A stretch of 64,000 nucleotides of DNA from Actinophytocola gossypii (GTDB lineage Bacteria > Actinomycetota > Actinomycetes > Mycobacteriales > Pseudonocardiaceae): contig NZ_JAFFZE010000010.1 in the NCBI RefSeq assembly GCF_025165815.1, forward strand, positions 124,001 to 188,000, in the 5' to 3' direction. A program made the translations under genes and the position numbers. The notes under the pieces were generated by a model. The model was not told where the DNA came from, did no database searches, and saw only the letters and a list, made by a program, of their open reading frames with translations. Below, piece by piece: positions 1 through 12,545 of the stretch. Each line of letters opens with the position of its first letter. Position 1 is the first letter of the stretch.

Positions 1-2098
1 CGAGCACGACCAGCTCGTTGCGGGCGGCGCGCACCAGCTCGTATTGGCCCCCGGAGAGCTGCATCAGGATCTCCGACGCCTCGGTGACCAGCGAGTCCAG
101 CGCCTCCGCGCACAACCAGGCCTCGAACCCGTTGGACTTGAGCAGGTTGCCGAGGTACTTGGCGACCTGCTCCTCCTCGCGGCACCGCTCGACCTCCTCG
201 GCCAGCGCCGCCGACTGCTCCCGGCGCGCCCGCAGGTCGGCGAGGTCGCGCTCGGCACCGGCGAGGTGCGAGGCGAGCACCACGTCCGGCTTGGCGTCGC
301 GGGCCAGCGCGATCCCGTGCCGGTCCAGTAGGTCGGTGAGCGCGGCGCGGGCGGTGCCGCCCTGGGTGCGCAGCTCGTTCTCGGCCAGCTCCAGCTCGGC
401 GGCCCGCCCGGACAGCTCGGTGTGCTGGTCCTTCGCCCAGTCGAGGAACGACTGCCAGGCCGCGGCGAGGTCGGTGCCGTCCACCGGCGGCGCGCCGAGG
501 GCGACGAACCGGTCGCGACTGGCCCGCAGCGCGGACCAGGCCCGCTGCTCCTCCTCGCCGAGCGCGGTCCGCTTCCTGGCGGCGTCCTCCTCGTCCTTCC
601 TGGCCGCGCGGGTCCGGGCGCGAGCGCGGTCGAGCGCGGCGTCGGCGGCCTCCCGGCTGGCCAGCGCGGCGTCGACCTCGGCGGGCGGCGGGGCGTCGCG
701 CAGCTCGGCGGCGAGGTCGGCGGCCTGCCGTTCGGCGGAGGCGACCTCGGCGCGGGCCTCGGCGGCGGCCTTGCCAGCGTCGGTGTACGCGCGGCCCTGG
801 GCGGTGACCCGGGACTTGGCCGCCCGGACGGCGTTCATGGCGGTGTCGAGGTCGGCGGGGACGTCGTGCTGGGGGAGGTCGTGCACCTGCTGGCGGCACA
901 CCGGGCACGGCTCACCCTCGGCGAGGTCGGCGGCCAGCGCGACCGCGCGGTGCGCCCGGTCGGCGTCGGCCCGCGCGGTCTCGGCGTCGGCCAGCTCCCG
1001 CTCGGCGGCGGCCGACTCGGCGCGGGCGGTCTCCTCGGCGGCCTCGGCGTTCGCGGCGGTGGCGCGCAGCCGGTCGAGGCGGTCGGCGAGCGCGGCGGCG
1101 CGGGTGTGCGCGGTGCGCCAGCCCTGGAGGACGGTCAGCTCCGGGAGTCCGGCGCGGGCGGCCTCCGCGTCGGCCTCCTCCTTCTCGGCGACGGCCCGCT
1201 CGTCGGCGCGGCGGCCGACCGCCTCGTCGGCGAGGGTGAGCCGGGTGGCCAGGTCGACCACGTCGCCCGGCCGGCGCAGCGACGCCAGCCCGGTGAGCTG
1301 CTCGCGGGCGGCGGCGGCCGCGGCGTTGGCCTCGGTCCACCTGGCGCGCAGGCCGGCCATCTCCTCGACGGCCTCGTCGACGGTGGGCACCAGGTCGGCC
1401 AGCTCCCGGACCTTGCGGGAGGCGGCCGCGACCACGTCGTCGGTGACCGTGCCCAGCTCGGTGAGCCGCTTCTGGGCCATCTCGAGCTTCCCGGACGCGG
1501 CGCTCGCCCGTGCCCTGGCCCGCTGGCCGACGTCCTCGTAGACGGCGAAGGCGAGCAGCTGGATCAGCAGGTCCTGCCGGTCACCGGGCTTGGCCTGCAG
1601 GAACTCGGCGAACCGGCCCTGCGGGAGCACGACGCACTGGGTGAACTGCTCGTAGCCGATGCCGAGCAGCTCGGCGACCGCGCCGGTGACCTTGTCGCCC
1701 TCGGCGAGCGACTCGGCGACGGCCTCGAGGATCTTGGTCAGGTCGGCGTCCGGCGGCACGCTCGCGTCGAGCCGGTCCAGCCGCGCCTCCTTGGTCTGCA
1801 CGGCACCCTGCGCGGACCGGCGCAGCAGCCGGACCGCCGCGTACCGGCCGCCGGCGGCCTCGAAGACGAGACAGACCTTGCCCTCGTTCACCGACGGCGC
1901 GAGCGCGTTGCGGATCGCGTCCTTCTTGCCCCAGCGCGGAACCGTGCCGTAGAGGGCGAAGCAGAGCGCGTCGATCACCGTGGACTTGCCGGCGCCGGTG
2001 GGCCCGGTGAGCACGAAGAAGTCCACATCGGACAGGTTGACGTCGGTGTGGTCGCGGTAGCTGCCGAAGCCCTCGAACATCAGGCGCAGTGGGCGCAT
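1..2098 (-). CDS. sbcC: Nuclease SbcCD subunit C (SMC/Rad50-like ATPase), 3' end cut by window edge
   Basis: ATPase subunit of the SbcCD (Rad50-Mre11-type) DNA-end nuclease. The N-terminal ATPase lobe is present: a P-loop of the form GPTGAGKST about 30 residues in, and the Q-loop region with PQGRFAEF. Long Ala/Glu/Arg-rich coiled coil follows, with a zinc-hook CPVC at 896-907 (about residues 398-401), the diagnostic Rad50/SbcC dimerisation motif. About 699 residues are visible; the returning lobe with signature and Walker B lies beyond the left edge. The ATG overlaps the sbcD stop (TGATG at 2096-2100), implying translational coupling with sbcD. Family identification is firm. Confidence 0.93.
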   Translation of the reverse strand, partial: MRPLRLMFEGFGSYRDHTDVNLSDVDFFVLTGPTGAGKSTVIDALCFALYGTVPRWGKKDAIRNALAPSVNEGKVCLVFEAAGGRYAAVRLLRRSAQGAVQTKEARLDRLDASVPPDADLTKILEAVAESLAEGDKVTGAVAELLGIGYEQFTQCVVLPQGRFAEFLQAKPGDRQDLLIQLLAFAVYEDVGQRARARASAASGKLEMAQKRLTELGTVTDDVVAAASRKVRELADLVPTVDEAVEEMAGLRARWTEANAAAAAAREQLTGLASLRRPGDVVDLATRLTLADEAVGRRADERAVAEKEEADAEAARAGLPELTVLQGWRTAHTRAAALADRLDRLRATAANAEAAEETARAESAAAERELADAETARADADRAHRAVALAADLAEGEPCPVCRQQVHDLPQHDVPADLDTAMNAVRAAKSRVTAQGRAYTDAGKAAAEARAEVASAERQAADLAAELRDAPPPAEVDAALASREAADAALDRARARTRAARKDEEDAARKRTALGEEEQRAWSALRASRDRFVALGAPPVDGTDLAAAWQSFLDWAKDQHTELSGRAAELELAENELRTQGGTARAALTDLLDRHGIALARDAKPDVVLASHLAGAERDLADLRARREQSAALAEEVERCREEEQVAKYLGNLLKSNGFEAWLCAEALDSLVTEASEILMQLSGGQYELVRAARNELVVL

Positions 2099-3255
2099 CA
2101 GCGGCCTCCGGTGCTTTCTTCCAGCAGTTCGGCGAACATCTCGCCCAGCCGGGGGTCGTCGATCTCGCGTTCGGACAGGAAGTCGGCGAACAGGTCGGTG
2201 GGCGAGCGGCCGATCCGGGAGCGGGTCACCGTGGACTCGGTGCGGGCGCGGAACTTCTCGTCGATCTGCACGTCGAGCGTGTTCGGCAGCTTCTCCCGGA
2301 CCTGGTCGGCGAGCCCGGCGGCGGCCTTCTGGGTCAGGACGACCCGCAGGAACGCGTCCCCGGCCTCCTCGCCGGCGGCGACGACCTCGTCGAGGGTGCC
2401 GCGCAGGGTGGCGAGCGGGCGGCCGCCGGTCAGCGGCACCGGGCGGATCTTCGCGCGGCTGTCCGGGGTGGCGTGCACGACCAGCGCGACCGGCTCGTTG
2501 GCCTCCTCGCCGAAGTCCAGCGCGATCGGCGAGCCGGAGTAGGCGATCGGGCACGGGCCGTCGATCTGCTGGTAGCGGTGCAGGTGGCCGAGCGCGGCGT
2601 AGTGCGTGCTGGTCGGGAACGTGTCCGGCGGGATCTCGTAGCCGAGCAGGGTCTGCACCGCGCGCTCGCCGCCGCCCCAGCGGCCGCCGAGCAGGGTGGC
2701 GTGGGTGGTGACGAGGTTGACGGTGTCGGCGGTGAACCCGCGGCACAGCACATCGACGATCGCGCGCACGCGGTTGGCGTAGTCCTGGTTGTGCCGCGAC
2801 GGGTCGTGCAGCAGCACCTCCGCGGCGCGCACGGCGTAGCGGTGGGACAGGAACGGCAGCGCCGCGACCACCGCGCGCTCGCCGGAGCGGGTGTCGACGG
2901 TGACCGTGCCGCCGCGGTCGGGGCGCTGCGGGGTGCCGACGACGTGGATGCCGAGCTCACCCAGCACCGGGCGGTACACCTCGTGCACCAGTCGCGGGCT
3001 GTCGTGGTTGCCGGCGAGCACGACGACGTGCCGGCCCTCGGCCCGCAACGCCATCAGGGTGTGCATGACCAGACCCTGCGCCTGCGGGTTGGGCGCCGCG
3101 GTCTCGAACAGGTCGCCAGCGACCACGACCAGGTCGACGTCCTCCTCGTCGGCGATACGGACCAGGTCACGCAGCACGACCTTCTGCTCGTCGATGCGCG
3201 GCTGGTTCTTCAGCACCTTGCCGACGTGCCAGTCGGCGGTGTGCAGGATCTTCAT
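2098..3255 (-). CDS. sbcD: Nuclease SbcCD subunit D (Mre11-like exonuclease)
   Basis: Mn-dependent 3'-5' exonuclease and hairpin endonuclease partner of SbcC. 385 aa, normal for the family. Calcineurin-like phosphoesterase motifs appear in order: DxH in HTADWHVG at residues 6-12, GDLFE (motif II), GNHD (motif III), and later TTHA and GHLH metal ligands. The C-terminal capping domain is present. It starts at ATG 3255 just below the HerA-like gene (9-base gap) and ends overlapping sbcC, so the three genes form one leftward operon. Confidence 0.95.
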   Translation of the reverse strand: MKILHTADWHVGKVLKNQPRIDEQKVVLRDLVRIADEEDVDLVVVAGDLFETAAPNPQAQGLVMHTLMALRAEGRHVVVLAGNHDSPRLVHEVYRPVLGELGIHVVGTPQRPDRGGTVTVDTRSGERAVVAALPFLSHRYAVRAAEVLLHDPSRHNQDYANRVRAIVDVLCRGFTADTVNLVTTHATLLGGRWGGGERAVQTLLGYEIPPDTFPTSTHYAALGHLHRYQQIDGPCPIAYSGSPIALDFGEEANEPVALVVHATPDSRAKIRPVPLTGGRPLATLRGTLDEVVAAGEEAGDAFLRVVLTQKAAAGLADQVREKLPNTLDVQIDEKFRARTESTVTRSRIGRSPTDLFADFLSEREIDDPRLGEMFAELLEESTGGR

Positions 3256-3264
3256 GTGCGTCCT

Positions 3265-5064
3265 CTAGAACGGGGGCGGGTCGTCGTCATCGTCGGCGCC
3301 CATGCCGGCGAACGGGTCCTCTGGCGTGGCCGGGCCGGTGTCGACGCCGTTCCAGGTGCCCTTCTCCGACGAACGGGTCGCCCAGGCGGGGAAGGGGAAC
3401 TCGATCGCGAGCGGCACCGGGATGTCGGGCTGCGAGACGAACATCGTTCCGGGCTTGGCGATCGTTGCGCGCTGGCGCTGGGCCGGCGGCAGGTAGCCGT
3501 ACTCGGGGCGGGACGCCTCGGCCGGGTCGAGCCGGCCGGCGACGCGGATCGAGCAGTTCGCGACGATCCGCCGCTCGACCTCGGACGCGGTCTGCTGGGC
3601 GCCGATGAGGATCACGCCGAGGGACCGGCCGCGTTCGGCGACGTCGAGCAGGATCTGCTTGATCGGGCTGTCCCCGTCGCGCGGGGCGTACTTGTTCAGC
3701 TCGTCGAGCACGATGAACATCAGCGGGCGCGCGGTGCCCTGCTCCTCCTTGCGGCGGAACTCCTGGCGCAGCGACACGCCGACCACGAACCGCTGCGCGC
3801 GGTCGGGCAGGTTGTGCAGGTCGACGACGGTGACCTGGGCCTGTGAGGTGGACAGCGACCGGTCGCCCCGGTCGGCGAGGTCGGACCGGATGATCGTGGA
3901 CAGCGGGCGGACCGCGGAACGCAGTCGCCGGAGGAAGGCGTTGACGCTGCCGGTGGAGGTGGAGCCGGCGACCCAGTCGCGGCGGGTGTCCTCGTCGAGC
4001 AGCTCGTCCTCGATCAGGCCGACGAGCTGTTCGAAGCTGCGCAGCTGCCCGCCCCGGCCGGGGTCGACGCCGGTGACCTGCACGGCGCCGTCCTTGCCGA
4101 CCTTCTGGTGGTCACGCTTGAGCCGGGCGGCGACCTGGCCGATCAGCATCGTGTACTGGCTGCGTTCGTCCTCGCCGTCGGCGAACACGAACGGCATCAG
4201 CTCCTGCTCGCAGAACTCGGCGAGCGTCCAGTAGAACGGGCTGACCGCCTTGTCCCTGGCCCGCACGTCCGGGGTGCCGCTGGGGTCGCCCGGCCGGGGC
4301 GGGGCGAACACCTGGACGTTGCGGAACGAGTCCGCGGGCAGGCCGAGGTGGGCGTAGCGGGCGCGGAACTCCTCGGTGAGCCGGGCGTTGGCGTAGTCGA
4401 GGAACAGCAGGTCCTCGCCCTTGACCGAGAAGATCAGCGCCTTGGTGTTGTGCGCCTCGCCGGCCAGCACGCCCGAGTTGAAGATCGAGTGCAGCAGGAA
4501 CGTGGCGAAGCTGGTCTTGGTGGCGATGCCGGAGACGCCGGAGATCGACACGTGCCCGCCCCGGGTGCCGTCGACGAACTCGAAGTTGAGGTACACCGGC
4601 TGCCCGTCGCGGCCGAGACCGACCGGGAGCTTGGCGTCGGCCATCGTGTCGAAGTAGAGCGCGGAGTCCCGGTCGGCGCCGGTGGCGCGGACCACGGCGG
4701 TGCCCGGCCGGGGCGGCACGTAGACCTCCGGCTCCACGCGGGTGACCGTGACCTCGGCGACCTCGGAGACCTCCGCCGGCAGCGCGCCCTGCTCGATGAG
4801 GAACACGTCGGAGGCGAACCGGGCGCCCTCGTGACCCGCCTCGACTCCTGTGACCACGCCGGCGATCCGCACCTCGCCGCCGTCCGGCAGGGCGCGCCGG
4901 GTGACCACGACGTCGTCGAGCTGCAGGAACTGGTCGGGCGCGACACCGACGGAGAACTCGAGCGGGCTCGCCGACACCGTGCCGACCACGAGCCCCACCG
5001 GCGTCCTGCCGTCCGGCGACACCAGGTCCGCCGGCGCGGCGCCGTTCGCCTGGGGTTCGGTCAC
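3265..5064 (-). CDS. HerA-like (DUF87) ATP-binding protein next to SbcCD
   Basis: 599-aa FtsK/HerA-superfamily ATPase. GTG 5064 is chosen because GAGGAG lies six bases upstream; longer frames extend into low-complexity coding-like sequence without a ribosome site. An N-terminal HAS-barrel-like beta domain (about 20-150) precedes the ATPase core. The nucleotide loop reads GVSGIATKTSF, keeping Lys-Thr but lacking the usual Gly before the Lys. Walker B is IVLDELNKY; further down are GAQQTASEVERR and RVAGRLDP, as in HerA sensor/arginine-finger regions. The tail is acidic (DDDDDPPPF). Archaeal HerA works with Mre11-Rad50 and NurA in end resection; the adjacency to sbcD-sbcC suggests a comparable role, which is inference. 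No NurA-like gene is seen here. Confidence 0.8.
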   Translation of the reverse strand: MTEPQANGAAPADLVSPDGRTPVGLVVGTVSASPLEFSVGVAPDQFLQLDDVVVTRRALPDGGEVRIAGVVTGVEAGHEGARFASDVFLIEQGALPAEVSEVAEVTVTRVEPEVYVPPRPGTAVVRATGADRDSALYFDTMADAKLPVGLGRDGQPVYLNFEFVDGTRGGHVSISGVSGIATKTSFATFLLHSIFNSGVLAGEAHNTKALIFSVKGEDLLFLDYANARLTEEFRARYAHLGLPADSFRNVQVFAPPRPGDPSGTPDVRARDKAVSPFYWTLAEFCEQELMPFVFADGEDERSQYTMLIGQVAARLKRDHQKVGKDGAVQVTGVDPGRGGQLRSFEQLVGLIEDELLDEDTRRDWVAGSTSTGSVNAFLRRLRSAVRPLSTIIRSDLADRGDRSLSTSQAQVTVVDLHNLPDRAQRFVVGVSLRQEFRRKEEQGTARPLMFIVLDELNKYAPRDGDSPIKQILLDVAERGRSLGVILIGAQQTASEVERRIVANCSIRVAGRLDPAEASRPEYGYLPPAQRQRATIAKPGTMFVSQPDIPVPLAIEFPFPAWATRSSEKGTWNGVDTGPATPEDPFAGMGADDDDDPPPF

Positions 5065-5396
5065 GGTGGCTCCTCGGGTGGCTCCTCGGGGACGGGGCCG
5101 CCAGTCTATGTCCGGGCCCCGACTCCGCCGGGGAGCGTCGGCCTGGCCTGTCGCCCCTGGCCGGCGGAGATCATTCCGAAGGGGACGGAAAACGATCGCT
5201 CCCGGACGGCCGAGAAACTCCGGAAATCCCCGCGCTCGACCGGGCGGCAAAGTGGTGAACACGAACGGGTGAACGCGGACTCGACGCGCCGACGATCCGG
5301 TAACGGCGATACCGAACGGAGGACGATCTTCGAACGTCCTGGCAGGTCACCCGACAGAGCGACGAACCACGGTTACCACACTCATTCGCACCTCGG

Positions 5397-5554: not shown

Positions 5555-6199
5555 ATGGCGGTACGACACGCGGACGTGCGAACGGACGTGAGGTCCATCA
5601 GGGTCCTGCTCGCCGAGGACATGGAGCTGCTGCGCACGGCACTGGTCAGCGTGCTCTCCGACGAGGACGACATGGAGGTCGTCGCGGACCTCAAGTGCGC
5701 TCCCGAGGTCGTCTCGGTCGCCCAGCGACTGCGCCCGGACGTCGCGGTGGTGGCGGCGGACGTGCCCCAGATCGGGGGCCTGTCGACGGTGCACGAGCTG
5801 CGCCGCCGGTTGCCGGACTGCCGGATCGTGGCGCTCACCGCGCCCAAGCCGCCGGGCCTGCTGAAACGGCTGCTCGCCGCGAACGTCCCGGGGCTGATCG
5901 ACAAGAACGCGTCCGCCGCGCGTCTGCTGGCCGCCATCCGCGGGGTGGCACGCGGCGACACCATGATCGACACGCACCTGGTGTCGGCGGCGCTCTCGGC
6001 CGGGCGCAACCCCTTCACCCCGCGAGAGTTACACGTGCTCCGGCTCGCCGCGGGTGGCGCGAGCGGGCCGGAGATCGCCAAGGAGCTGTGCCTGTCCCAG
6101 GGCACCGTCCGCAACTACCTGTCCAGCGCGATGAACAAGACCGGCGCCCGCACGCGGATCGACGCGATCCGGATCGCCGGCGAGGCCGGCTGGCTGTAG
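5555..6199 (+). CDS. Atypical NarL/LuxR-family response regulator (RamR/AmfR-like)
   Basis: 214-aa DNA-binding regulator: receiver domain about residues 14-130 and LuxR-type helix-turn-helix about 148-205 (FTPRELHVLRLAAGG, then SQGTVRNYLSSA). The acidic pair (ED at 21-22), T95 and K117 are present, but the phosphoacceptor position is Ala67: the strand reads RPDVAVVAADVP where typical receivers read RPDVVLLDxxMP, with Asp69 two positions late. It may therefore be phosphorylation-independent. GGGAGG precedes the ATG. It faces the lanthipeptide operon, as expected for a ramR/amfR-type activator; its target is inferred from context. Confidence 0.88.
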   Translation: MAVRHADVRTDVRSIRVLLAEDMELLRTALVSVLSDEDDMEVVADLKCAPEVVSVAQRLRPDVAVVAADVPQIGGLSTVHELRRRLPDCRIVALTAPKPPGLLKRLLAANVPGLIDKNASAARLLAAIRGVARGDTMIDTHLVSAALSAGRNPFTPRELHVLRLAAGGASGPEIAKELCLSQGTVRNYLSSAMNKTGARTRIDAIRIAGEAGWL

Positions 6200-6209
6200 C
6201 GCTACAGCC
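6192..6209. terminator. 18-bp perfect palindrome spanning both stop codons of convergent genes
   Basis: GGCTGTAGCGCTACAGCC contains the regulator's TAG (6197-6199) and, on the other strand, the transporter's TAG (6204-6202), placed symmetrically. The two reading frames are two bases apart. A short RNA hairpin would form in either direction, so it may act as a shared weak terminator. No T-tract is present. Confidence 0.45.
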
Positions 6210-7893
6210 GCACGGCCGGCCGGCCCGCGGCCACCAGCTCGCGGTAGAGCGGCGAGGTGGCGGCCAGCGTCTCGTGGTCGCCGTACCGGGCGCCGGCGCC
6301 GTCGAGCACGAGCACCCGATCCGCACGCAGCGCCGAGCTGGTCCGGTGCGCGATCACGACCAGCGTGCCGCCCCGAGCGGCGAACGCCTCCTCCGCGCGC
6401 CGCTCGGCCACCGGATCGAGATGGCAGGTGGCCTCGTCCAGCACCGCCACCGGCGCCGGCGAGAGGTAGGCCCGGACGAGCGCGAGCAGCTGCCGCTCCC
6501 CCGCCGACAACTCGGCCGGCCGCACCTCGCCGGCGTACCCGCCGAGCCGGGCGACCAGGTCCTCGGCGCCCACCGCGGCGACGGCCTGGTCGAGGTCGGC
6601 CGGATCGTCCTGGCACAGGTAGGTGAGGTTCTCCCGCACGGTGCCGGCGAACACGTACGCCTCCTGCGGGATCAGCACGCGCAGCGCGGCCAGCCGGTCC
6701 GGCGGCAGCTCGGCGGTCGGCACCCCACCCACGGTCACCGTGCCCGCGTCGGGCCGCAGCAGCCCGCACAGCAGGCTCGCCAGCGTCGACTTGCCGATCC
6801 CGCTCGGGCCGACGACCGCGAGGTGCGCGCCGGCCGGGACGGTGAGGTCGAGATCGCGCAGCACCGGCTCGGCGTGCGGCCCGTAGGCGAAGGTGACCCC
6901 GCGCAGCACGAGGTCGTGCCCGTCGGTCGGTCGGCGGTCGGGCGCGGGGTCCGGCGGCACGGTGGTCGCGTCGAGGATCCGGCCGAGGGTGACGACGAAC
7001 CGCAGCCCGCTGCCGCCGACGCCGCTGACCAGGTTCTGCAGCGCGGGCTGGAGCCCGAACAGGACGTAGGTGAGCCCGCCCATGATGGTGCCGGCGGTGA
7101 GCCCCCGGTCGACCAGCCAGCCGCCGGCGAACAGCACGACCAGCAGCGGCAGCCACCCGCCGACGGCGAAGCAGAGCGTGCGCAGCGCCGCGACCCCGGC
7201 GAGCCGCCGCTCGGCCAGGGCCTGCTCCCGGACCGGCCCGGCGACCATCGCGGCGGCGTGCTCCTCGGTGCCGGCCGCGGTGATGTCCCTGGCCCCGGCG
7301 AGCACGCTCCCGGCCGCGGCGGCGAGCCGCTCGTCGGCCAGCACCGCCTCCCGCTGCCGCCTGGCCGCGAGCCCCAGCATCCCCACGAACGCGACCAGCC
7401 CGAGCAGGAACGGCGGCACGATCAACGCGGCCACGACCGGCGCGACCGACAGCAACCCGACCACGACCCCCACCACGGTGACGACGAACCCGCGCACCGC
7501 CATCAGCAGCCCCGCGTAGGTGTCCCGCACGATCTCCACCTGCCGGGTCAGCCGCGCGACCGCCCCGTCGTCCCCCCGCCCGTCCACCGCGTGCCGCAAC
7601 GCCCCGCCGACCACCCGCCGCACCAGGTCGTCCCGGAACGGCTCCGCCAGATCCCCCAGCCGCCGAAACACCATCCGCGTGCCCACCGCGCCGACGGCCG
7701 ACATGACCACCAGCCCCACCAGCCATCCCACCCCCACCAGCGGCCGCCCGGCGAGGAACCCGTCGTCCACCGCCCGCGCCACCACCAGCCCCGACGCCGC
7801 CGCCGGCAACGCCTCCGGCACCGACCACCCCACCAACCGCACCACCGGCCCCCGCCGCAACGACCCCACCGCGTACCGGATCTCCCGCCTCAC
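6202..7893 (-). CDS. ABC exporter, fused membrane and ATPase domains (RamB/AmfA-like)
   Basis: 563 aa. Six predicted membrane segments occupy roughly residues 15-300, then a nucleotide-binding domain: Walker A GPSGIGKST, signature LSAGERQ, Walker B VAVLDEAT with the catalytic Glu. Residues before the H-loop read VIAHRTSS. The GTG start is supported by GGGGAGG about seven bases upstream. It is the last gene of the leftward lanthipeptide operon and probably forms a heterodimer with the 8033-9679 product to export the modified peptide, as RamA/RamB do for SapB. A four-copy 22-bp repeat separates the two transporter genes. Confidence 0.88.
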   Translation of the reverse strand: MRREIRYAVGSLRRGPVVRLVGWSVPEALPAAASGLVVARAVDDGFLAGRPLVGVGWLVGLVVMSAVGAVGTRMVFRRLGDLAEPFRDDLVRRVVGGALRHAVDGRGDDGAVARLTRQVEIVRDTYAGLLMAVRGFVVTVVGVVVGLLSVAPVVAALIVPPFLLGLVAFVGMLGLAARRQREAVLADERLAAAAGSVLAGARDITAAGTEEHAAAMVAGPVREQALAERRLAGVAALRTLCFAVGGWLPLLVVLFAGGWLVDRGLTAGTIMGGLTYVLFGLQPALQNLVSGVGGSGLRFVVTLGRILDATTVPPDPAPDRRPTDGHDLVLRGVTFAYGPHAEPVLRDLDLTVPAGAHLAVVGPSGIGKSTLASLLCGLLRPDAGTVTVGGVPTAELPPDRLAALRVLIPQEAYVFAGTVRENLTYLCQDDPADLDQAVAAVGAEDLVARLGGYAGEVRPAELSAGERQLLALVRAYLSPAPVAVLDEATCHLDPVAERRAEEAFAARGGTLVVIAHRTSSALRADRVLVLDGAGARYGDHETLAATSPLYRELVAAGRPAVRL

Positions 7894-7941
7894 AGCCCCA
7901 CCTCCCCGTATCTCCCCCGGTGGTCACGATGGGCACCTCCC

Positions 7942-8029
7942 GCGAGTCGTACGCTCCCGTCCCGCGAGTCGTACGCTCCCGTCGCGCGAGTCGTACGCTC
8001 CCGTCCGGCGAGTCGTACGTTCCCGGTCC
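7942..8029. repeat. Four tandem 22-bp repeats between the two exporter genes
   Basis: Core GCGAGTCGTACGCTCCCGTC starts at 7942, 7964, 7986 and 8008, an exact 22-bp period; the fourth copy has one C-to-T change. Each unit holds the palindrome CGTACG flanked by GAG and CTC, so each can form a small hairpin. It occupies almost the whole gap inside the operon. From memory, related GTACGACTCGC strings recur between genes in Pseudonocardiaceae genomes; that recollection is unchecked. Confidence 0.9.
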
Positions 8030-8032
8030 GCC

Positions 8033-9679
8033 TCATGCGAAGACCTCCCGGTAGCTCTGGTCGGTCCACAGGTCCGCGTGCGGGGCGACGGCGCGGACGC
8101 GGCCGGCCTCCAGCCACACGACCAGGTCCGCGCGCTCGGCGGTCGATTGGCGATGGGTGACCACCAGTCGGGTGCGGTCACCGCTCTCGGTGAGGGTCCG
8201 GCTGATCCGGGACTCCGTGACCATGTCCAGGCTCGACGTGGCGTCGTCCAGCACCAGCAGCCGCGCCGCCGGCCACGCCCGCGCCAGCCCGAGCCGCTGC
8301 CGCTCCCCGCCAGACATCGGCGCCGACGCCAGCGGCGTGTGGTACCCGTGCGGCAGCCGGCTGACGAACTCGTGCGCGTGCACCGCCCTGGCCGCCGCCT
8401 CGACGTCCCCGGCCGCCGCCCCCGGCGCGACCGCCTCCGCCACCGTCGCCCCCACCAGCACCGGCCGCTCGAACGCGCACCCGACCGCCCCCCGCAGCGC
8501 GTCGTGCGACAGCGACGCCAGCGGCACCCCGTCCAGCAGCACCACGCCCTCGTCGGGATCCCGCAGCCGCGCGGCCAGCGCCGCCAGCACCGACTTGCCC
8601 GCCCCGGACCGCCCGACCACCGCCACCGACCCCCCACCCGGCAGGTCGAGGTCCACGTCCGACAGCAGCGCCGCGTCGCCGGCCCGCACGGTCACCCCGC
8701 GCAGCTCCAGCCGCCCCGGCCCGGCCGGAAGCTCCCCGGACCCGTGCCCGAACACCGGCACCGCCAGCACCTCCCCGGCACGCACCGCGCCGGCCCGCGC
8801 CCGCGCCAGCCGGGCGAAGACGCTGGTCAGCCCGCCCAACCCGGCTCCGAGCAGCGCGTACTGGCTCGCCGCGAACAGCTCCCCCGGCGTGATCCGCCCC
8901 CCGTGCAGCGCGAACCCCCCGGTCACCAGTACCGCCACCAGCACCAGCGGCCCGACCACCGCCCCCTGCGCGGCCGACGTCGCCAGCACCCGCCAACTCC
9001 GCATGCCCTCCTCGTGCAGGCGCCCCAGCGGAGCGAGCACGCGCCGCCGCTCCCGCTCGAGCGTGCCGGCGGCCGCGATCGTGCGGGCCCCGGCGAGCGA
9101 CTCGGCGAGGCGCCCGGCGAGCCGGCCCTGCGTCGTCAGGTACGCGGTGACCGCGCTCGCCGTCCGCCGGGTGAAGGCCCGCAGCACCAGCGCGACCAGG
9201 GCCACCCCCGCGAGGAACGCGACGGCGAGCCAGACGTCCAGGTAGACCAACAGCGCCAGGCTGCCGACCGGGGGCAGGAACGCGCTGCCGACGGTGACCA
9301 GGCTCGGCCCGGCCTGCGCGGCCTCCGCGGCGTTGCCGGACACCCGGCCGACCAGGTCACCGGTCTCGAACCCGCGCCGCCCGCTGTCACCCGCGGCGAG
9401 CACGTGGCGCACCAGCCGCTCGCGCAGCCAGGCCGTGGTGCCGGCGACGCAGGCGGTCCCGGCGAACGCGTCGACGAGGTCGACCACGACGCCGAGCAGG
9501 ACGAGCCCGGCGGCCAGCGCGAGCCACAGCCCGCCGTCCACACCGGACACGATCGCGTCGACGGCCCGCCCGAGCACGATCGGCAGCGCGAGCGTGCCGA
9601 GGATGCCGAGCAGCGACGCCGCGCCGATCACCGGGAGCCAACCACCGGCATGCCGGGCGATCGAGCCGAAGGTGGTCAT
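8033..9679 (-). CDS. ABC exporter, fused membrane and ATPase domains (RamA/AmfB-like)
   Basis: 548 aa with an N-terminal six-helix exporter domain and a C-terminal ATPase: Walker A GRSGAGKSV, signature MSGGERQRLGLARAW, Walker B LLVLDDATSS. The residue after the Walker B Asp is Asp rather than the catalytic Glu, a change often seen in one half of heterodimeric exporters. Start ATG 9679 has GGGAGC upstream. It lies just below the precursor gene and a strong hairpin. The expected partner is the 6202-7893 protein, and the substrate the lanthipeptide encoded at 9770-9922. Confidence 0.88.
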   Translation of the reverse strand: MTTFGSIARHAGGWLPVIGAASLLGILGTLALPIVLGRAVDAIVSGVDGGLWLALAAGLVLLGVVVDLVDAFAGTACVAGTTAWLRERLVRHVLAAGDSGRRGFETGDLVGRVSGNAAEAAQAGPSLVTVGSAFLPPVGSLALLVYLDVWLAVAFLAGVALVALVLRAFTRRTASAVTAYLTTQGRLAGRLAESLAGARTIAAAGTLERERRRVLAPLGRLHEEGMRSWRVLATSAAQGAVVGPLVLVAVLVTGGFALHGGRITPGELFAASQYALLGAGLGGLTSVFARLARARAGAVRAGEVLAVPVFGHGSGELPAGPGRLELRGVTVRAGDAALLSDVDLDLPGGGSVAVVGRSGAGKSVLAALAARLRDPDEGVVLLDGVPLASLSHDALRGAVGCAFERPVLVGATVAEAVAPGAAAGDVEAAARAVHAHEFVSRLPHGYHTPLASAPMSGGERQRLGLARAWPAARLLVLDDATSSLDMVTESRISRTLTESGDRTRLVVTHRQSTAERADLVVWLEAGRVRAVAPHADLWTDQSYREVFA

Positions 9680-9706
9680 GGGTGCTCCCGTTTAGACTTG
9701 CGGGAC

Positions 9707-9751
9707 GGGCCGCGGCCCCGGACGAACGCCAGTCGTCCGGGACCGCGGTCC
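9707..9751 (-). terminator. Long intra-operon hairpin between precursor and exporter genes
   Basis: Two 19-base arms (9707-9725 and 9733-9751) pair with only two non-Watson-Crick positions around a 7-base loop. There is no T-run after it in the leftward direction. It lies just after the precursor stop, so it could protect the abundant precursor mRNA end and reduce read-through into the exporters. Confidence 0.65.
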
Positions 9752-9769
9752 GCCTTCCGACCGCTCGGG

Positions 9770-9922
9770 TCAGTGGCAGATCAGCAGGGACAGCCCGCTG
9801 GTGCCGCCGCAGAGGGTGAGGCTCAGGTTGCTCGGGCACGAGTGCCCCGACGCGGAGCTGCCACCGCCGTGGCCGCCGGTCTGCGGGGCGGTCTCCATGC
9901 CTTGCAGGTCGAGAAGCGCCAT
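9770..9922 (-). CDS. Class III lanthipeptide precursor (SapB/AmfS type), 50 aa
   Basis: 50-residue precursor found by reading the gap between synthetase and exporters. The leader begins MALLDLQGMET, matching the LLxLQ-type recognition motif of class III leaders and closely resembling RamS (MNLFDLQSMET, from memory). A Gly/Ser/His linker follows. The core has two SxxSxxxC motifs, SNLSLTLC (31-38) and SGLSLLIC (42-49), the pattern LanKC enzymes convert to labionin or lanthionine rings, ending in His50. Cys29 is extra and lies outside both motifs. AAGGAG lies eight bases before the ATG. The hydrophobic ring contents suggest a surfactant-like morphogen; the exact cleavage site is not evident. Confidence 0.93.
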   Translation of the reverse strand: MALLDLQGMETAPQTGGHGGGSSASGHSCPSNLSLTLCGGTSGLSLLICH

Positions 9923-9947
9923 CGTGTTCTCCTTGAGTGGGGATTTC

Positions 9948-12545
9948 CTACCGACCCGCGCCGGACGGCGCGGGGGTCATGGGGACGGCCGCGAGGCCGA
10001 GTCCCGGCGCGTGCACCGGGTGCTCGTGCAGGGCGACGCCGAGCGCGAGCAGCACGCCCGCGGTGCCGGTGGCGAGGTCCATCGACAGCCGCAGCAGGCC
10101 GGTGCCGGGGAACGCCGTACCGTCGCCGAACGGGAGCGCGTGCCAGGCGAGGTTGCGCACCTGCCGGTGCAGTGACTCGCCGGTGGCGCCTCGGCCGGCC
10201 AGGTAGTAGAGGATCCCGGCGCGGCCGGTGAACAGGCCGGGCAGGATGTACATCGCGGACTGCGCGGCGCGCCAGGCTCCCTCGCTCGCCTCGGCGAACC
10301 GCGCCGTGTGCTCGCCGTCGGGCCGGCGGGTCAGGTACTCGTCGAGCACCATGCCGATGCCGACACTGCCGCCGTCCACGTAGGGCATCGTGCGCCAGCC
10401 CTCGTTGACCTCGAGGGTGCCGTTGTCGCGGGTGACGCACCGGCGCAGGTCGTGCCGCAGGGCGAGCGCGGCGCGGTCGAGCAGGGCGTCCTCGCCGGTC
10501 TCGTCGTAGGCACGGAGCAGCAGCAGCGCCTGGCCGGCGCACCCGCGCAGCAGCCCGGCGCTGGGCTGCCCGCCGCCGGAGACGGGCGGGGGCGCGTCCG
10601 GGTCGGGCTCAGGCAGCGGCGGCACCCGGTTCGCGACCAGCTCGGCGGCCCGCAGCCCGGCCGTGCGCAGCGCCGGCTCGCCGGTGACGTCGGCGAGGTG
10701 CAGCAGGTTCAGCCCGATCCCGGACAGGCCGCCGGCCAGGTCGGGGCCGAGCTTCTCCCAGTCCTCGCGCAGACAGATGTCGACGACGTCCAGGGCCTCC
10801 TGCCGGTGCCCGAGGTGGTCGAGGGCGAACGCGGCTCCGTGCAGGCCGTCGTAGAGGCCGAGCCGGGAGCCGGACGGCGGGTCGGTGGCGCGGCGCAGCA
10901 GCCATGCCTCGTGCTCGGGGTAGCGGCCGGCACCGGTGACGTCGAGGGCGTAGAGCACGCCGGCGGCACCGTAGGCGAGGCCGAGGCCGCCGACCGCGAA
11001 CTGCTGCGGGTCGCCGGGGAACAGCCGGTCGTCGCGGTCGGGGGTGGCGCTGGTCAGGATCGCGCGGGCCAGGTCGTCGCGCAGTCGAGGCCACTCCCCT
11101 GGCTCGGTGGAGGGGGCGGTCGTCGCGGGGGTGTCGGGCGGGACGATCACCTCGACGCCCCGGTCGAGGAAGGCCCGGTCGACCGGGAAGTGCTCGGCGA
11201 TGACGTCGGCGAAGTGCCGCGCCTTGACCCGGTGCAGGCCGAGCAGGTTCGTCATCGGCAGGAACAGCGCGAGGCGCAGGCAGGCGAGCGCGTACAGGTC
11301 GATGTCGAACCCTCGGGTGGCGCGCGGCGCGGTGAACCCGGGGTTGCCCAGACCGGGCCGCTCGGCGTCCGCGACGTCGGAGGTGACCTCGAAGTCGAGC
11401 AACGCGACCGTGTCGTCGGGTCGCACGATGATGTTGAACAGGTGCAGGTCCCCGTACACGACGCCACGTTCGTGCACCTGGGCGATGGTCTCCGCCACCT
11501 GGTCGTGGATGCCAGTGGCCCAGCGCGTGAACTCCGCGTAGTCGTCGGCGGTCGCGCTCGGGTCGATCATCGGGTAGCGGGTGACGATGGCCTTGCCGAG
11601 CACGTCGCCCTCGACGTACTCCATCACCAGGAACCGGTGCTCGCCGAGCCAGAACATGTCGTGCACCGCCGGGATGCCCGGGATGCCGGCGAGGCGCCGC
11701 AGCGTCTCGTGCTCGCGGCCGAGCCGGCGCACCGCGTCGTGCCCCCGGGCGTCCAGGCCGGCGTGCGGGCGCCCCTCCTTGAGCACGACCCGTTCGCCGG
11801 AGCGGGTGTCGCGGCCGAGGTAGATGCCGCCGCCGTTGGAGAAGTGCAGCACCTCCTCGATCCGGTAGGGCAGGTCGGTGGTGGTGACCGCGTTGCGGGC
11901 GGCGAGGTGCGGGGCGAGGAAGTCGGGCAGCGTCACCCAGGGCGGGGGTTTGAAGACCGGGTCGCGCCGGTCCGGCACGAGGTTGCCGTCCGGGTCGGCG
12001 ATGGCCTCGATGACCTCGCCGCGCTCGTCGACGGTGTACCGGTTGGCGAAGGCGCCGTAGCGGACGTAGAGCGGGCCCTTGCCCCAGCGCAGGTCGCTGA
12101 GGATGTACGGGTTGGGCTCGCCGTCGAGCAGCCGGCCGAGCTCGGTGAGCATGGTCTCGCAGGCCGCGTCGTCGCGCGGGTAGATGGTGACGAGCTTGCC
12201 GCTGTAACCGCGCGGGGCGTACTTGGAGACGCGGGCGGTGAGGGCGGTGGCCGACCGGAGGAACTTGAACGAGATGCCGCGCGGGACGCAGTAGTCCCAG
12301 ATCGTGTCGAGGACCCGTTCGGCGTTGTCGGCGGTGGCCGAGGCGTGGATCTTCCAGCCCTGGAGGGGGAGGTCCTGGCGTCGGGCCGGGTCGACGACGA
12401 GCCAGTCGTCCTGTTCGCGCAGCGTCCAGCCGTCGGGCAGCGGGCGGGCGGCGGTGGCGAAGGACTCCCCGGCGGTGCGCTCGGAGTGCAGGGCGTCGTA
12501 GAAGGACGGATCCGCCATGCAGAACGGTTGGTAGTCCTGATCCAT
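9948..12545 (-). CDS. Class III lanthipeptide synthetase LanKC (RamC/AmfT-like)
   Basis: 865-aa three-domain enzyme. Residues about 1-220 are the phospho-Ser/Thr lyase-like region; about 225-500 a Ser/Thr kinase (VVLKEG lysine, VVYGDLHLFNI catalytic loop near residue 365, LLDFEV in place of DFG); about 520-865 a LanC-like cyclase (LSGIGLNLLHL, LLRGCAGQALLL, GSVGIGMVLDEY) without the usual Cys-Cys-His zinc set, as in class III. It would phosphorylate and eliminate precursor Ser residues and cyclise Cys onto them. Start ATG 12545 is preceded by GGAGC and matches family N-termini (MDQDYQPFC). It is first gene of the leftward operon. Confidence 0.93.
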   Translation of the reverse strand: MDQDYQPFCMADPSFYDALHSERTAGESFATAARPLPDGWTLREQDDWLVVDPARRQDLPLQGWKIHASATADNAERVLDTIWDYCVPRGISFKFLRSATALTARVSKYAPRGYSGKLVTIYPRDDAACETMLTELGRLLDGEPNPYILSDLRWGKGPLYVRYGAFANRYTVDERGEVIEAIADPDGNLVPDRRDPVFKPPPWVTLPDFLAPHLAARNAVTTTDLPYRIEEVLHFSNGGGIYLGRDTRSGERVVLKEGRPHAGLDARGHDAVRRLGREHETLRRLAGIPGIPAVHDMFWLGEHRFLVMEYVEGDVLGKAIVTRYPMIDPSATADDYAEFTRWATGIHDQVAETIAQVHERGVVYGDLHLFNIIVRPDDTVALLDFEVTSDVADAERPGLGNPGFTAPRATRGFDIDLYALACLRLALFLPMTNLLGLHRVKARHFADVIAEHFPVDRAFLDRGVEVIVPPDTPATTAPSTEPGEWPRLRDDLARAILTSATPDRDDRLFPGDPQQFAVGGLGLAYGAAGVLYALDVTGAGRYPEHEAWLLRRATDPPSGSRLGLYDGLHGAAFALDHLGHRQEALDVVDICLREDWEKLGPDLAGGLSGIGLNLLHLADVTGEPALRTAGLRAAELVANRVPPLPEPDPDAPPPVSGGGQPSAGLLRGCAGQALLLLRAYDETGEDALLDRAALALRHDLRRCVTRDNGTLEVNEGWRTMPYVDGGSVGIGMVLDEYLTRRPDGEHTARFAEASEGAWRAAQSAMYILPGLFTGRAGILYYLAGRGATGESLHRQVRNLAWHALPFGDGTAFPGTGLLRLSMDLATGTAGVLLALGVALHEHPVHAPGLGLAAVPMTPAPSGAGR

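Follow-up and report, generated by a model that had tools for sequence, protein, structure and literature searches.

The window, a 64,000-nucleotide stretch of Actinophytocola gossypii DNA, carries an intact operon that very probably serves to produce, modify, and export a class III lanthipeptide with three rings, of the stackepeptin type. By its sequence, the locus adds a new member of stackepeptin type to the SapB/AmfS superfamily and is a largely known kind of cluster, and its nearest characterised relative is stackepeptin, which has three ring motifs. A preliminary description of the locus had proposed a class III lanthipeptide cluster with the layout of ram/amf, a proposal borne out by the domains and score of the synthetase, the leader and motifs of the precursor, and the order of the genes:

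5555–6199, plus strand: NarL/LuxR-type response regulator, convergent (Pfam Response_reg and GerE)
6029–6031, plus strand: TTA codon, codon 159 of the regulator (codon scan)
6202–7893, minus strand: ABC exporter B (Pfam ABC_tran, weak ABC_membrane; syntenic in relatives)
8033–9679, minus strand: ABC exporter A, with fused membrane and ATPase domains (Pfam ABC_membrane and ABC_tran; syntenic in relatives)
9706–9752, minus strand: long GC-rich hairpin with 20-nt arms and a 7-nt loop, without a U tract, directly 3′ of lanA (recurrence, compensatory changes)
9770–9922, minus strand: LanA precursor, 50 aa, with an LLDLQ leader and three SxxSxxxC motifs (profile scores, alignment of relatives)
9776–9799, minus strand: ring motif 3, S42-S45-C49, SGLSLLIC (LanA sequence, alignment A1)
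9809–9832, minus strand: ring motif 2, S31-S34-C38, SNLSLTLC (LanA sequence, alignment A1)
9836–9859, minus strand: ring motif 1, S22-S25-C29, SSASGHSC (LanA sequence; kept in relatives)
9948–12545, minus strand: LanKC, class III lanthionine synthetase (lyase-kinase-cyclase), 865 aa from the ATG at 12545 (NF038151, Pfam, structure match)

The 50-codon precursor gene, for which no strand had been given, was confirmed on the minus strand, where it opens with an ATG preceded at 6 nt by the ribosome-binding site AAGGAG and encodes MALLDLQGMETAPQTGGHGGGSSASGHSCPSNLSLTLCGGTSGLSLLICH; the plus-strand translation of the same interval is an unrelated frame and was discarded. LanA scored well above the cut-offs of both the Pfam RamS model (54.8 bits, cut-off 24.3) and the NCBIfam SapB/AmfS model (57.6 bits, cut-off 25), and the anticipated LLxLQ-type leader start is present as LLDLQ. 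The gene lies 25 bases downstream of the LanKC gene and upstream of the two ABC exporter genes, and the LuxR-type regulator faces the exporters as had been described, convergent with the second ABC gene. The start of LanKC at 12545 also proved correct. LanKC matched NCBIfam NF038151 with 1089 bits (cut-off 575) and fell below the cut-off of the LanL model (372 bits, cut-off 650), possesses the Pfam domains RamC_N, Pkinase, and LANC_like, and matches the solved LanKC structures 8sao/8sap over residues 80–869 of the 890-aa frame. Its kinase has a DFE motif. In the cyclase, the CHG position reads F-T-G and the zinc pair is absent (the aligned solved LanKC 9wop reads FDG), with a first zinc-ligand position that is variable, C in the window LanKC and R, G, S, K, or D in its kin.

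The core of LanA holds three tandem, non-overlapping SxxSxxxC motifs (S22/S25/C29, S31/S34/C38, and S42/S45/C49), not the two counted at first; the one overlooked was S22-x2-S25-x3-C29. Taken from the window sequence by itself, motif 1 is modest evidence, because shuffles of LanA residues 10–30 yield SxxSx3C in 2% of cases and SxxSx2–5C in 7.6%, and it is the comparison with relatives that decides. In alignment A1, composed of 20 sequences whose members were picked by similarity, the first motif is kept in every relative; S23, S25, S28, C29, S31, S34, C38, S42, S45, and C49 show no variation, and S22 shows very little. In the divergent three-Cys members L041, L084, L086, L091, and L093 the Ser positions shift and an SxxSx2–3C motif is still formed, and the only three-Cys precursors lacking a third motif, L064 and L133, both belong to other subfamilies. 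Thus, Cys29 is not an extra residue ahead of the first ring, as had been supposed, for it closes motif 1. The Gly/His/Ser stretch taken for a linker is present, though it is partly core peptide. The C-terminal His, listed at first as a difference from RamS, is not unusual, being the last residue of almost every three-motif relative and of many erythreapeptin-like precursors with two motifs. Class III precursors are described as commonly carrying “two or three” such motifs (PMC8960859), and one account places both stackepeptin and SapB in a subfamily with 2–3 cysteines (PMC11251773). The original view of a two-ring SapB/AmfS-type peptide, with Cys29 free or disulfide-bound, draws on the superfamily and operon layout shared with ram/amf and on the alignment of the two C-terminal motifs with both RamS rings, but is very improbable given that Cys29 sits within a perfect SxxSxxxC, that the first motif persists where Ser positions shift, and that a three-motif relative is present in the stackepeptin producer.

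Based on established LanKC chemistry as summarised in PMC10604976, two waters lost and one lanthionine or labionin ring are expected per motif. The LDLQ leader of LanA would be bound by LanKC, which would phosphorylate and then eliminate two Ser per SxxSxxxC motif (six dehydrations), and each Cys would be joined to the Ser of its motif as lanthionine or labionin, leaving three tandem, non-overlapping rings and, as predicted from the three motifs, no free Cys29. Similar synthetases are reported to give lanthionine, labionin, or mixtures, a type unpredictable by sequence (PMC13380574). The loss of four waters foreseen for two rings is accordingly replaced by an expected count of six, and the corrected product means a different mass to look for: the predicted core S22–H50 has a computed monoisotopic mass of 2801.315 Da unmodified and 2693.251 Da after six dehydrations, against 2729.272 Da after four. 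A histidinobutyrine crosslink through a His, as in noursin, a peptide described as combining labionin with a His-butyrine link that a particular subgroup of LanKCs installs (PMC10206099), is not favoured, since dehydrobutyrine could arise in this core only from Thr36 or Thr41, neither of which is invariant.

Stackepeptin reportedly was described by Jungmann et al. in 2016 (doi 10.1021/acschembio.5b00651). It is a class III lanthipeptide of Stackebrandtia nassauensis DSM 44728, called “supersized”, and is cited as such in PMC13380574 and PMC12328550. The S. nassauensis genome contains one RamS match and one LanKC above cut-off, which are adjacent and followed by two ABC genes and a convergent regulator; the precursor gene occupies 558070–558219. 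It is a strong inference, resting partly on uniqueness in the genome and not on a letter-by-letter match of the precursor, that this is the stackepeptin locus. The order LanKC-LanA-ABC-ABC with a convergent regulator is the same there and in the window, as are the three SxxSxxxC motifs, and the cores are near-identical (SGHSCPSNLSATLCGGTSGLSVLICH in the S. nassauensis gene, SGHSCPSNLSLTLCGGTSGLSLLICH in the window), so that the window LanA shows the stackepeptin-type core SGHSCPSNLSxTLCGGTSGLSxLICH with three consecutive SxxSxxxC motifs. Differences lie in the precursor as a whole (74% identity), a variable leader-core linker, and a regulator that is only 36% identical; LanKC is 64% and the ABC proteins 61–62% identical.

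The window locus shares with SapB/RamS of S. coelicolor and AmfS of S. griseus membership in the RamS and SapB/AmfS models, the LDLQ leader, and the content and order of ramCSAB-R/amfTSAB-R. However, those peptides have exactly two ring motifs and different core sequences, making the window LanA a member of the superfamily and not of the two-ring type. The erythreapeptin-like precursors of the same bacterial family likewise share the superfamily and a C-terminal CH, but have two motifs and the leader MELVLxLQ. A maximum likelihood tree of 32 LanKCs, with outgroups only from Micromonospora and Jiangella, placed all 17 three-motif LanKCs, among them the S. nassauensis one, on the same side of a branch with 100/100 support and otherwise broadly followed taxonomy. 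The window and S. nassauensis LanKCs thus fall together, separated from the two-motif LanKCs of the outgroups; the SapB-like Micromonospora LanKCs lie on another branch.

Precursors with nearly the same core, for which a search had been suggested, were found across several actinobacterial genera, with near-identical cores in Actinophytocola, Kibdelosporangium, Amycolatopsis, Herbihabitans, Longispora, Glycomyces, and Actinopolymorpha. Relatives that could be named include Actinophytocola xanthii (80%), Kibdelosporangium aridum, Actinosynnema sp., Herbihabitans, Amycolatopsis deserti, Longispora albida, several Glycomyces, and Actinopolymorpha rutila. Within the family of A. gossypii, 31 of 392 genomes had precursor matches, roughly half of which carry three motifs, and the precursor was present in four of five congeners. 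Among the loci read from 395 genomes sampled across the class, three-motif precursors were not encountered again, nor was the precursor found in plasmids, phages, or viral contigs, and a text search of a library of papers returned no occurrence of the core letters. Several of the loci stood out in other respects. Record L007 (JOAA01000001.1, labelled Rhodococcus rhodnii NRRL B-16535) has a precursor identical, and a LanKC almost identical, to those of Kibdelosporangium aridum and is probably a mislabelled or swapped strain. In the two-motif SapB-like clusters L018, L020, L036, and L043 (Micromonospora and kin), the precursor gene is present as two or three tandem copies that differ slightly from one another. 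In L111, L113, L124, L133, and L134 (Jiangella and other genera), a Thr-containing variant (e.g., STLTVLTC) replaces the first motif and the precursors end in PSNLSVxLCH; these represent a related but distinct subfamily.

In all, 38 distinct three-motif precursors were gathered; as these had been selected for three motifs, conservation was judged on A1 and on similarity matches. Pairwise codon differences in the core were 2616 synonymous compared to 1502 non-synonymous. Core Ser residues are retained while their codons switch between AGC and TCN from species to species; the residue counts behind this observation are partly set by the search pattern, and only the codon switching is independent evidence. 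An excess of non-synonymous differences would be expected without selection, and on this codon comparison the core is under purifying selection.

Both ABC proteins would export the peptide, and the leader would be cut off by a protease encoded outside of the cluster. By analogy with other actinobacterial class III peptides, whose leaders are reported to be removed by M1 (AplP-like) proteases (PMC10885120), this is probably an M1 protease encoded elsewhere; the A. gossypii genome has four M1-domain matches, which are candidates. A domain search of the locus and of the neighbourhoods of relatives found no immunity, tailoring, or protease genes within the cluster. The GDSL, SbcD, and HerA-like neighbours were considered as parts of the cluster and rejected, being conserved only in the congener locus L002. 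The HerA-like ATPase (3265–5262, minus strand; weak padloc mad8/HerA matches) adjoins the SbcD-like nuclease (2098–3255, minus strand) and the two are also side by side in L002, from Actinophytocola xanthii, resembling a repair or defence pair.

The hairpin trailing the precursor gene recurs in most SapB/AmfS-superfamily loci (L002, L010, L012, L017, L018, L020, L036, L043, and others), and where precursors occur in tandem it is mostly found 3′ of the last copy. Across 17 hairpins with a 7-nt loop, compensatory changes occur at most of the 16 stem pairs, and pairs covary among three-motif loci. The structure probably either limits read-through into the exporter genes, as an attenuator, or protects the 3′ end of the lanA message.

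In the regulator (5555–6199), the expected phospho-acceptor Asp reads Ala, and this position varies widely among relatives, so the protein has probably lost its phosphorylation site and would not act as a response regulator phosphorylated in the classical way. The regulator gene has a single TTA codon against a GC3 of 94%. TTA codons occur in the regulator genes of 13 of 35 loci, compared to 2 of 37 LanKC genes and none among 37 sequences of either ABC gene; in the regulators they lie at codons 3, 25, 26, 34, 53, 70, 159, and 164 (window numbering) spread over different genera; carriers include L002–L008, L013, L014, L016, L035, and L099. This pattern suggests developmental control of the bldA type, and the recurrence at different codons suggests repeated selection for it. 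The convergent regulator would likely activate the operon at a late stage, timed with development.

The initial proposal of a new morphogen like SapB, set apart from RamS by an additional Cys, is not supported as written, with stackepeptin the nearest characterised relative and Cys29 in a ring motif. A role as a surfactant or morphogen for aerial growth like SapB, whatever the ring count, is compatible with a three-ring product and could well apply, though the balance tips slightly to doubt. It is consistent with the ram/amf operon order, the RamS family membership, the convergent regulator with its TTA codon, and the one chaplin-like repeat protein in the A. gossypii genome, and TTA is likewise described as frequent in the regulator or synthetase gene of Streptomyces amf clusters, though the same source reports true ramR only from streptomycetes (PMC4255298). 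On the other side, Micromonospora strains with SapB-like clusters are reported to form no aerial hyphae (PMC5765111). Four congeners had no match to the chaplin domain PF03777, and the A. gossypii genome had one weak match, in a long repeat protein. In addition, TTA codons are also common in the regulators of antibiotic clusters. The chaplin-like protein (L140, G000:C1:85000-89000, minus strand) is an open frame of >1,300 aa that contains numerous chaplin-like SGNVVxxPVxxPVxxxGN repeats, most of which lack Cys, as well as a tail of GLPVADGLAGLP repeats, and is the sole chaplin-model match in its genome. An antimicrobial or signalling role unrelated to aerial growth appears rather unlikely; the additional SGHSC ring at the N-terminal end, which is conserved and which SapB lacks, and the existence of antibacterial class III members such as andalusicin (PMC10604976) point towards it, while the ram/amf type of operon and the lack of immunity, tailoring, and protease genes found in the cluster point away.

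With the locus read as stackepeptin-type, a widespread family of uncharacterised peptides, conserved to an unusual degree, is now placed beside a described compound. As a speculative and unlikely extension, the three-ring stackepeptin-type peptides might form a distinct, strongly conserved developmental system outside of Streptomyces (Pseudonocardiaceae, Glycomycetaceae, Longispora, and Actinopolymorpha), under bldA-type control through a repeatedly arisen regulator TTA, in which the N-terminal SGHSC ring would add a function that two-ring SapB lacks (e.g., His-mediated binding of a receptor or a metal). That the entire core is conserved from one actinobacterial family to another suggests that these peptides have a specific target or role.
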